Assembly (NCBI RefSeq): GCF_024734895.1
Contig: NZ_CP091430.1
Coordinates: 7,131,501-7,195,500 of the forward strand
Direction of reading: 5' to 3'
From: Paenibacillus spongiae
GTDB lineage: Bacteria > Bacillota > Bacilli > Paenibacillales > Paenibacillaceae
DNA length: 64,000 nt
Positions 48,105 through 50,911 of this stretch are shown in pieces. Position numbers and translations under genes: made by a program. The number at the start of each line of letters is the position of its first letter. Position 1 is the first letter of the stretch. The notes under the pieces were generated by a model. The model made no database searches and was not told the DNA's origin. It saw only the letters and a list, made by a program, of their open reading frames with translations.

Positions 48105-48428
48105 CTAATGCCCTCCCCCAACGATCCGCAAGCCGGCAACGCCGGCAATAATCATGCCGATAAACAGCAGCTTCCGCCTGTCCTTGGACTCTCCGAACAG
48201 ATACATGCCCAGCAGAACGCTTCCGGCCGAGCCAATGCCGGTCCATACGCCGTAAGCCGTACTGATCGGAATTTCCTGCAGCGCTTTCGATAAGAAATAA
48301 AAGCTGAAGAAGCCCGAAATAATAGCGCCGACCGTTCCTTTCCACTTCTTAAATCCGTCCGACCATTTCATACAAGTAACGCCGCTGATTTCACCTATGC
48401 CGGACAGCAGCAAATAGATCCAAGCCAT
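48105..48428 (-). CDS. SMR-family efflux subunit (second of a pair)
   Basis: A 107-residue, four-helix small multidrug resistance protein. The conserved membrane-embedded glutamate is in LLSGIGEISGVTC, and ISTAYGVWTGIGSAGSVLLG is the family signature. Paired, heterodimeric SMR proteins (YkkCD-type) usually insert in opposite orientation. It follows its partner by 43 bases. Substrates could be cationic drugs or guanidinium-like compounds. Confidence 0.9.
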   Translation of the reverse strand: MAWIYLLLSGIGEISGVTCMKWSDGFKKWKGTVGAIISGFFSFYFLSKALQEIPISTAYGVWTGIGSAGSVLLGMYLFGESKDRRKLLFIGMIIAGVAGLRIVGGGH

Positions 48429-48471
48429 TCGTCATTCCTCCGTTGCCTTACTCTGGTGCTAATATCAATGT

Positions 48472-48858
48472 TCAATTATCGGCTTGTGCCGCTTGAATCG
48501 AAGCTTCCTCCTGCTTCGCCCCGGTTTTATCCGACTTATCGTCTGACGAGATCATCTTGAGCCCGATAATGCCGCCGACAAGCAGCGCCACAAAAAACAG
48601 TCTCAGCCAATCCGCCGGCTCGTTCAGCAGCAGCATTCCGATCAACACCGTTCCTGCCGTGCCGATCCCCGTGAAGACCGCATAGGCCGTACCGACTTCG
48701 ATGATCCGCATCGACTTCGCGAACAGATAGAAGCTGGCTGCCAGCATAATAACCGTCAGCACGGAAGGCAGCAGAATCGTAAATCCTTCCGAAGCGCGCA
48801 GCCCGAATGCCCAGCCGATCTCAAGCATGCCGCCCACGAGCAAATACACCCATGCCAT
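48472..48858 (-). CDS. SMR-family efflux subunit (first of a pair)
   Basis: A 128-residue SMR protein. The glutamate is in GGMLEIGWAFGLRASEGF, followed by VGTAYAVFTGIGTAGTVLIG. It has a hydrophilic C-terminal tail of about 20 residues that its partner lacks. The motif near the glutamate resembles Gdx/SugE and YkkC types. It starts nine bases after the TetR gene, so the regulator and pump share an operon. Confidence 0.9.
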   Translation of the reverse strand: MAWVYLLVGGMLEIGWAFGLRASEGFTILLPSVLTVIMLAASFYLFAKSMRIIEVGTAYAVFTGIGTAGTVLIGMLLLNEPADWLRLFFVALLVGGIIGLKMISSDDKSDKTGAKQEEASIQAAQADN

Positions 48859-48867
48859 ATTTAATTT

Positions 48868-49455
48868 TCATCCTCTCTTGCAAGTTATTGCTTTACAGAA
48901 CCAATTCCACAGCTGCTCCTGTCTTTCCAGAAACAGCTCCTTCTCGTACAGCTCCCGTTCCACGATCAATCCATCCACCAGCGCATAGAACAATGCAAGC
49001 AGCCGCTTTTCTTCCTCTTCGTCAAGCTCATCGCCATGTGTCATGCAACCTTGGATGAGAGGAGCAAGATGACTAGTCAGAAACCGCTCATGCCCGTCGA
49101 AATCTTGACGAAGCCGGTCCCGCAGATGGCGGGGCGGCACCATTATCGTCCTTTTCAGGAATGATTTCTCCAGCGTCGGTTCCCCATGGCCGGAATAATA
49201 ATGGAAAGCCGCCCGCACCCGTTCCAGCGGCGGCCAATCGGCAGTCTGATTGACAATCTTCAAGAATTGGCCGCAATCTTCCCGGATCACATCCTCGACC
49301 AATGCAAGGAACAGTTGCTCCTTCGATTCAAAATGGGCATAGATCGACGGCGTCTTAATCCCGACAGCCTTAGCAATCTGAGACATGGAAGTCCCTTCAT
49401 AGCCCGACTCCGTAAATAGCATTAACGCTGCATGCTTCAATTTCGAAGCGGTCAT
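48868..49455 (-). CDS. TetR-family repressor of the SMR operon
   Basis: A 195-residue regulator. Its N-terminal HTH is LFTESGYEGTSMSQIAKAVG then IKTPSIYAHFESKEQLFLAL, a strong TetR match. The C-terminal ligand-binding domain is helical. The ATG at 49455 is chosen because GGAGGG lies seven bases upstream. It is the first gene of the operon tetR-smr-smr. A perfect palindrome just downstream of its promoter is the likely operator, so expression should be autorepressed and induced by the pump's substrates. Confidence 0.92.
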   Translation of the reverse strand: MTASKLKHAALMLFTESGYEGTSMSQIAKAVGIKTPSIYAHFESKEQLFLALVEDVIREDCGQFLKIVNQTADWPPLERVRAAFHYYSGHGEPTLEKSFLKRTIMVPPRHLRDRLRQDFDGHERFLTSHLAPLIQGCMTHGDELDEEEEKRLLALFYALVDGLIVERELYEKELFLERQEQLWNWFCKAITCKRG

Positions 49456-49514
49456 ATCCAATCCCTCCGCGATTATATGAAAACAAAGTCCCGTTGAGGC
49501 TCATGCCCACTTAC

Positions 49515-49614: not shown

Positions 49615-49643
49615 TTTACAAATGATGGATCCGATGTTACTAT
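49615..49643 (+). promoter_or_regulatory. Promoter of the ArsR-GHKL gene
   Basis: TTTACA (49615-49620), 17 bases, TACTAT (49638-49643). It diverges from the SMR operon promoter, the -35 boxes being about 48 bp apart. Confidence 0.72.
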
Positions 49644-49644
49644 T

Positions 49645-49674
49645 TAATTACGTAATAACGTTATTACGTAATTA
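49645..49674. promoter_or_regulatory. Perfect 30-bp palindrome, probable operator
   Basis: The 30 bases are an exact inverted repeat with centre AACGTT. Each arm contains its own small palindrome ATTACGTAAT (49647-49656 and 49663-49672). It begins one base after the -10 and ends 19 bases before the ATG, covering the transcription start. An ArsR-type dimer, or two, could bind here. Confidence 0.8.
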
Positions 49675-49693
49675 CTGCAATGAGGTGATGTTT

Positions 49694-50839
49694 ATGACTC
49701 CATCCAGAGACTTCGCCGCTGAATTAGATGACATGAAGACACAGCTCGCCGATCTTGCCCTGCAAGTCAGACAGCTGACGGGAGCAGCCGATACAGGTGC
49801 AATCCGAGCAGCATCTGCCCGTCAGGATCTACCCGCTGCGGCGTATACGCCCGCCGAGACCGATAAGTCCAGCTCTTCCTCCGGCGAGCTTTATTACTCC
49901 GGCCACTACAACCAGGATAATGCCCGATTCCGCTGGGAGCCGAAATCGCGATCCGTGAACCAGATTTTGTCCACCGACGGGGAAAAGGCAGCCAAAGTGG
50001 TAGGCGCGCTCGGGCATAAGCAGCGGCTCGATATTATCCGCACGATCCTGCAGGAGCCTATGAGCGGGGCCGAGCTGGTCGAACGGCTGAACATGGGGAC
50101 GACCGGTCAGCTGTACCACCATCTGAAGGCGCTGCTCGGCGCCGACCTGCTGCAGCAGGATGACCGCGGCGGCCGATATTCAATTCCCCGCCACCGTACG
50201 CTACCTTTGCTGCTGCTTCTTGCCGCAGCTTCCGACCTGCTCGATGCGAGCGATTATATGGACATGACCGAGGTCCGCGGCAATTCTTCCGCATACCTGG
50301 GCAGCACGGAAGGCAAGCACGACCCGCATGCCCTGCTGGGTGCTGTGCTGGAGAACAGTCTATTGGAGCACAATGCCGGCTATTGCACGGAAGTGAATAT
50401 TTATATTCATGACGATTCCAGGGTGACGGTAGCGGACAATGGACGCGGCATTCCAGCCCGCGCGTTCCCCGGGGCGGATACCGATCGTTCCTGGCTCCAG
50501 ACCGTCATGACCGATCTGCATAACCGAACCGCAACCGGCGCGTCCTACACCGTGCCGGGCGGAGAGAAAGGAATTAGCATTGCAGTTGTCAATGCCCTGT
50601 CGCTCCACCTGCAGGTCGAGACGAGATGGGACGGCTCGATTATTCGCCAGGACTACAGCCACGGCATCCCGCGCAGTGCGCTGACTCCGGTTGGCACGAC
50701 AGGCGAGACGGGAACAAGCGTGACCTTCGAGCCGGACCCGGAACTGTTCAGCTCCGCGTTCGATCGGGAGACGGTGGAGAAGATGATTGCAGAACGTTCG
50801 GCGATGTATCCACAGCTAACCCTTCGGGTGCACGTATAA
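49694..50839 (+). CDS. ArsR-type winged-helix protein fused to a GyrB-like GHKL domain
   Basis: A 381-residue cytoplasmic protein. About 5-30 is a short coiled coil and 31-90 is a low-complexity linker. About 96-166 is a winged helix (GALGHKQRLDIIRTILQEP, GTTGQLYHHLKALLGADLL). About 193-355 reads like the GyrB ATPase domain: YLGSTEGKH, NAGYCTEVNIYI, VTVADNGRGIP (D248), PGGEKGISIAVVNALS and GTSVTFEPDPELF. The ATP-binding Asn is N221, but the residue four before it, the catalytic Glu in GyrB, is A217. There is no transducer, Toprim or cleavage domain. Probably a nucleotide-sensing (or GyrB-ligand-sensing) regulator; that is inference. Start 49694 follows GAGGTGATG. Confidence 0.82.
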   Translation: MTPSRDFAAELDDMKTQLADLALQVRQLTGAADTGAIRAASARQDLPAAAYTPAETDKSSSSSGELYYSGHYNQDNARFRWEPKSRSVNQILSTDGEKAAKVVGALGHKQRLDIIRTILQEPMSGAELVERLNMGTTGQLYHHLKALLGADLLQQDDRGGRYSIPRHRTLPLLLLLAAASDLLDASDYMDMTEVRGNSSAYLGSTEGKHDPHALLGAVLENSLLEHNAGYCTEVNIYIHDDSRVTVADNGRGIPARAFPGADTDRSWLQTVMTDLHNRTATGASYTVPGGEKGISIAVVNALSLHLQVETRWDGSIIRQDYSHGIPRSALTPVGTTGETGTSVTFEPDPELFSSAFDRETVEKMIAERSAMYPQLTLRVHV

Positions 50840-50861: not shown

Positions 50862-50911
50862 AAAGAAGCCTCGGGCTTGAACGGATTCCCGCCTGCCCTC
50901 GGCTTCTTTTT
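50862..50911 (+). terminator. Terminator of the ArsR-GHKL gene
   Basis: AAGAAGCC and GGCTTCTT with inner GGGC/GCCC pairing, then TTTTT, about 25 bases after the stop. Confidence 0.8.

Follow-up and report, generated by a model that had tools for sequence, protein, structure and literature searches.

The window, a stretch of 64,000 nucleotides from Paenibacillus spongiae, carries a gene whose product joins an ArsR-like winged helix to a domain of the DNA gyrase subunit B (GyrB) type. The gene, its control region and the parts of its protein are listed in Table 1. A longer alternative frame opens at 49622 and crosses the putative operator; the starts of relatives correspond to 49694. The probable terminator was found by eye, and the terminator scan reported only a shorter minus-strand site at 50862-50909.

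Table 1. Positions in the window of the fused regulator gene and associated features
Feature	Position	Strand	Basis
SigA-like promoter TTTACA-17-TACTAT (extended -10)	49615..49643	+	9/12 matches
Putative operator, 30-bp perfect palindrome	49645..49674		Repeat search; octamers recur upstream of relatives
Ribosome-binding site GAGGTGAT	49682..49689	+	Sequence reading
Fused regulator, 381 aa	49694..50839	+	ORF; start agrees with relatives
N-terminal helix, residues 7-28	49712..49777	+	Predicted model
Two beta strands, residues 65-87, common to non-fused relatives	49886..49954	+	Model and relatives
ArsR-like winged helix, residues 100-162	49991..50179	+	Profile matches and model
Long helix, residues 166-196, linking winged helix to gyrase domain	50189..50281	+	Model
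GyrB 24K-type domain, approximately residues 186-381	50249..50836	+	Profile and structural comparison
Codon of A217, position of catalytic Glu E42	50342..50344	+	Alignment
Codon of W312, E. coli R136 position (Arg in 62/66 relatives)	50627..50629	+	Alignment
Probable terminator: inverted repeat (13/15 pairs), then T run, directly 3' of gene	50862..50909		By eye

Divergent from the fused gene lie a TetR-type regulator and two small multidrug resistance (SMR) transporters (window 48105-49461, minus strand), and CTAACGATCGTTAG upstream of the TetR gene is, by eye, likely its own operator. When the neighbor clusters of 42 fused loci were compared, a TetR gene in the same divergent place was seen only in the sister species (L032). 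The search for homologs and their gene neighbors proposed in the initial annotation yielded a fused family; the 42 loci compared showed no general neighborhood that would point to a function, nor any conserved partner gene.

The initial annotation had read the protein as an ArsR-type winged helix attached to a GyrB-like domain without its catalytic glutamate, with nothing else of a topoisomerase. This reading was confirmed as regards the fusion, the missing glutamate and the lack of other topoisomerase parts, and the winged helix is ArsR-like. Both profile search and structural comparison (residues 182-381) found the GHKL 24K fold, which is the fold of the N-terminal 24K subdomain of GyrB. The NCBIfam GyrB profile scored 129 bits against a cut-off of 740, and the protein stops at residue 381 with the 24K part, so that the transducer, TOPRIM and C-terminal gyrase parts are absent. 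HTH_20, HTH_5 and HTH_metalloreg matched the winged helix with scores below their cut-offs, and none of the reported family matches was to MerR. The winged helix has no cysteine-based metal site; the sole cysteine, C231, lies inside the gyrase domain. The recognition helix (G135-L147) is invariant in 42 aligned members, with L144 replaced by isoleucine in some others. The lid stretch of the structural model is of low confidence.

Full-length relatives were present in 13 of the 22 genomes of the genus sample, its own included. In the order sample, the N-terminal half was matched in 96 of 393 genomes, one gene each, and the frames of 95 of these (298-475 residues; sequences were read for 30 of the loci) are long enough for the fusion, while that of G088 is split over two frames. 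Phylum-wide, six of 398 genomes were matched, again including its own, and the other five frames have 191-281 residues. Among the best 80 of 168 confirmed relatives, the 42 fused loci from named genomes all belong, going by title, to Paenibacillaceae. The gyrase domains of 22 fused proteins (hereafter sensors) formed one clade apart from 32 GyrB/ParE rows (support 100/100) in a tree that does not place this clade among GyrB and ParE.

Directly 3' of the promoter-like site, the palindrome contains TTACGTAA (49648-49655), TAACGTTA and again TTACGTAA (49664-49671). This DNA had been proposed as a gel-shift target, and its standing as a predicted operator is borne out across the family. A perfect TTACGTAA lies within 200 bp upstream of 56 of 63 non-identical family genes (shuffle mean 0.4), and a pair of octamers 8 or 16 bp apart, one with at most one mismatch and the other with at most two, was found upstream of 59 of the 63 (shuffle mean 0.3, maximum 3). 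About one promoter such as that at 49615-49643 is expected by chance in the scanned stretch. A SigA-like promoter with the octamer at -8 to +25 of the -10 end was found at 56 of the 63 genes, compared to a mean of 14 and a maximum of 20 when the stretch before the octamer was shuffled. Since the octamer sits at the promoter's -10 element, bound protein should block the promoter, and autorepression through DNA binding is highly probable. The usual ArsR operator is an inverted repeat, unlike this run of octamers. The palindromic octamers follow one another in 8- or 16-bp steps in the window (49648-49671) and in relatives.

These results bear on whether the gene has a function at all. A decaying gyrB fragment fused by accident would be missing catalysis and most of gyrase, as this protein is. 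However, its conservation, seen in a single gyrase-domain clade spread over 96 of 393 genomes, in the operator and promoter, and in a recognition helix unchanged across 42 members, already refutes this explanation, to which we give almost no weight.

Operator sites were then considered genome-wide, in searches that allowed at most one mismatch and covered the 16-bp form in the genus sample only. In the genus, the operator (both spacings) was found in 11 of 13 gene-bearing genomes versus none of nine gene-free genomes, each time adjoining the gene, and reversed-pattern controls matched in four and two genomes. Within the window genome, searching at this threshold turned up a single strong operator, that of the regulator itself. 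The 8-bp form was also sought in 80 gene-bearing genomes of the order: 43 of them yielded 48 sites in total, and the other 37 yielded none. Forty-two of these sites precede the N-terminal match by 21-312 bp and six, at five loci, lie elsewhere; the reversed-pattern control gave eight sites, so the six represent no numerical excess. The likely regulon is almost confined to the regulator gene. At two of the five other loci (G096 and G035, from different families), the operator stands directly before a gene for a class I S-adenosylmethionine (SAM) methyltransferase. The G118 site, between convergent genes, and the G146 site, within a phage-like gene, were taken as chance matches. The site at L180 position 1518 (G192) is an array of three octamers that precedes an alpha/beta hydrolase gene by about 230 bp and is distant from the regulator; this hydrolase is a possible further target.

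This same methyltransferase was also the next gene in 14 of the 42 fused loci, at a distance of 12-38 bp in 12 of the 14. Thirty of 95 methyltransferase loci were read: 13 linked to the regulator, two unlinked and 15 from regulator-free genomes. Both unlinked copies, which are from regulator-bearing genomes, have perfect octamers in their promoters, and no octamer (up to one mismatch, within 160 bp) was found at any of the 15 from genomes without the regulator. The linked copies lie inside the operon, and three of the 13 have a lone one-mismatch octamer. The methyltransferase is very probably a target of the regulator where it is present. Linked copies are confined to one supported regulator clade (27 rows, 98/94), 12 rows of which are without the enzyme, and the enzyme family is no commoner with the regulator (17 of 96 genomes) than without it (78 of 297). 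In the order sample, 15 genomes have a linked copy, and in seven of them (G370, G338, G199, G316, G181, G216 and G310) it has a stop or is short; in all seven the regulator frame is open over the match. No methyltransferase of this family was found in the window genome at the search threshold. The model of the enzyme (mean pLDDT 74) is nearest to small-molecule methyltransferases, with an echinomycin-biosynthesis enzyme (22-23% identity), a heterocyclic toxin methyltransferase (19%) and TehB (20%) as neighbors.

Among the best 80 of 168 relatives, the other 38 come from groups that include Actinobacteria, Meiothermus and Chloroflexi. They have the whole N-terminal half, with its recognition helix, in common with the fused proteins, but no gyrase domain follows. 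Their length is mostly about 140-200 residues, a few longer readings being over-extended starts. They appear to form a little-described regulator family across phyla. Also unlike the fused loci, these (L074-L111) adjoin genes for beta-lactamase-like serine hydrolases in 20 of 38 cases, 14 class A-like and six class C beta-lactamase-like, the families being named from two and one representatives, respectively; examples are L092:5875-7482 and L111:4578-6360. The octamer T[T/A]ACGT[A/T]A was present in six of 20 non-fused upstream stretches (L085, L087, L089, L090, L094 and L097), and looser versions were seen by eye upstream of L081, L088 and L092. Operators of this kind in relatives without a gyrase domain indicate that DNA control can do without that domain, and the DNA-binding half and its operator look older than the fusion. 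From these comparisons, the gyrase pocket looks like an input added to an existing regulator.

The pocket was compared between 66 of 67 sensors (L011, without the motif, was left out) and 33 GyrB/ParE rows of 36 loci. At the position of the catalytic glutamate E42, where A217 had been noted, alanine is found in 63 of the 66 sensors, serine in one and glutamate in two (L052 and L070); the latter two occupy separate tree positions, one on a long branch. Lysine at the lid position Lys103 is kept in none of the 66 sensors compared to all 33 GyrB/ParE rows, and the glycine loop is altered: L115 is replaced by E (52 sensors), H116 by K (56) and G119 by S or N (53). By contrast, N46 (N221 in the window protein, as noted earlier), E50, D73, R76 and G77 are each kept in 66 of 66 sensors, I78 in 65, P79 in 64 and T165 in 62. 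R136 is kept in 62 of 66 sensors versus 22 of 33 GyrB/ParE rows. Judged from these residues, the pocket is preserved and the hydrolysis machinery is lost, and the sensor family has very likely lost ATPase activity.

According to the available part of one study, the triphosphate is held by the side chains of Asn46, Lys103, Gln335 and Lys337 (PMC4388272), and an excerpt of another states that ATPase activity is no longer detectable once Lys337 has been changed (PMC2845627). Gln335 and Lys337 sit in the transducer, which the sensors lack, and Asn46 is present. The suggestion that the domain binds ATP but does not hydrolyze it is only half supported: E42 is gone and Asn46 is retained, but Lys103, Gln335 and Lys337 are lost, as far as these excerpts define the site.

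Residues of the site touched by inhibitors were taken from a list based on docking with a reference ligand, in the part of that paper at hand (PMC11434840), and an excerpt of a further paper gives R136, D73, G77, I78 and T165 as novobiocin-resistance positions (PMC7822030). Of the 57 columns invariant in GyrB/ParE, the nine inhibitor-contact columns, as defined from these partial sources, are all kept in the sensors compared to 14 of the 48 others (Fisher p = 9e-5, with column sets picked after the alignment had been seen). In the enzyme, the residues that are kept belong to the ATP site as well, so a drug is not singled out, and with N46 kept, a nucleotide ligand also fits. On sequence grounds, the pattern favors a drug-like ligand without proving one, and inhibitor-like compounds appear a better fit to the kept residues than ATP.

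The window protein departs from its family in having W312 at the R136 position, which weakens the drug-ligand reading for this protein. The idea of an aminocoumarin ligand thus gained from the nine kept contact columns, within the limits of the excerpts that define them, and lost from W312. GyrB of the same genome (L002) has Leu at this resistance position, as do the Paenibacillales GyrB proteins L031, L216, L219, L229 and L234. Loss of R136 in the sensor might track its loss in the organism's own GyrB, but no clear covariation was seen in the 32 readable pairs of 36: both have Arg in 22, neither in one (the window genome), the sensor alone in seven (one species twice) and GyrB alone in two.

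Another possible explanation for the preserved pocket is that it senses an adenine compound (ATP, ADP, AMP, or SAM/SAH) and conveys the energy or methylation status of the cell to the regulator's promoter. Nucleotide binding can survive the loss of E42 alone. The adenine-binding D73 is kept without exception, as is N46, and T165 nearly so, and the methyltransferase is the one recurrent target, hence the inclusion of SAM/SAH. However, K103, L115, H116 and G119 have given way to other residues and there is no transducer, a general metabolic signal is ill-suited to a regulon of one or two genes in a patchy family (96 of 393 genomes), and R136 is kept in nearly all sensors though the available text of the triphosphate study does not name it among the ligands. 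We consider an adenine ligand rather unlikely, with a real share of the probability.

It could also be that the gyrase domain has no ligand, and serves as a dimerization module or as a contact to gyrase or DNA, in which case the protein would be a gyrase modulator or simply an autoregulator. The protein has lost catalysis and most of gyrase, operators exist without the gyrase domain too, and the regulon is almost only the regulator gene itself. Yet GyrB dimerizes through its N-terminal arm and transducer, parts that are absent here, and the pocket residues are the best-kept of the gyrase-invariant columns (with contacts taken from the excerpts above), which a scaffold would not need. This explanation is improbable.

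The initial suggestion that a non-catalytic gyrase pocket would make a sensor is supported, the missing glutamate, the kept pocket and the upstream operator all being family-wide, and the fused regulator is probably a ligand sensor. Our main reading, to which we assign a probability of roughly 0.5, is that the protein is an autoregulated one-component repressor whose non-hydrolyzing gyrase pocket senses an inhibitor-like small molecule. The most likely ligand resembles what gyrase-B inhibitors place in the pocket (aminocoumarin-like or other heterocycles), not ATP; that it is gyrase-inhibitor-like is put at somewhat less than an even chance. In the proposed circuit, the winged helices of a dimer would sit on the TTACGTAA array at the regulator's own promoter and keep it off. 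A small molecule entering the gyrase-type pocket would change the dimer, helix 166-196 would relay the change to the winged helix, and the protein would leave the DNA, raising its own level. In one clade, the level of the co-transcribed or unlinked SAM methyltransferase would rise too.

For a gene without a linked target, such as that in the window, the regulator is the only circuit product found. This makes sense if the regulator also binds the compound away, in the manner of TipA, a minimal autoregulated drug sensor and sequesterer, as the accessible part of its description has it (PMC7762955). Within that description, the likeness is that of a single gene that senses, controls itself and may soak up the compound through extra regulator protein, and both have an operator at their own promoter, which is predicted in the case of the fused regulator. 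TipA, however, combines a MerR-type DNA-binding domain with another ligand domain and activates, whereas repression is expected here. A TipAS-like short form from an internal start was not indicated in the sensor family: of 56 members, 41 have ATG for the methionine at the domain border, and its mean ribosome-site score of 2.8 equals that of other internal codons (2.8), compared to 4.7 for true starts.

The clade with the methyltransferase recalls Rv2887, a ligand-released repressor of the drug-methylating enzyme Rv0560c, a small-molecule SAM methyltransferase, according to an excerpt of PMC5526998. The clade's enzyme is similar in fold to the heterocyclic toxin methyltransferase. The differences are that Rv2887 belongs to the MarR family, that the two methyltransferases are about 19% identical and that no such enzyme was found in the window genome.

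In the open-access literature, we found no description of an ArsR-type or winged-helix regulator fused to a gyrase-B or GHKL domain, and no gyrase-type pocket acting as the sensor of a transcription switch. The nearest described proteins there, going by the accessible parts of the two papers, are CapK and the plant protein GYRB3. CapK, an HTH-STAS-GHKL kinase that works with CapS (PMC13373217, in part), likewise holds an HTH and a GHKL domain within one bacterial regulator, but, by that text, it acts as a kinase on a separate repressor, whereas the fused regulator has a gyrase-type domain and no conserved partner in 42 loci. Arabidopsis GYRB3 is a gyrase-B-like piece with a DNA-binding-type domain and is no gyrase (PMC2845627, in part). 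As given there, it combines the transducer part with a SANT domain, in contrast to the ATP pocket and winged helix of the fused regulator.

Tentatively, then, Paenibacillaceae may have domesticated the pocket of their own antibiotic target, so that it senses gyrase-B antibiotics, frees its own promoter and fills the cell with a drug-binding decoy, with the methyltransferase modifying the compound in one clade; we hold this full version to be unlikely as a whole. Should the pocket take up a nucleotide or SAM, the regulator would connect adenine compounds directly to transcription in a new way. With a gyrase-B inhibitor as ligand, it would be a receptor and decoy that mimics the drug target, could serve readily as a biosensor for this drug class, and would give soil bacteria an unrecognized means of withstanding such drugs.
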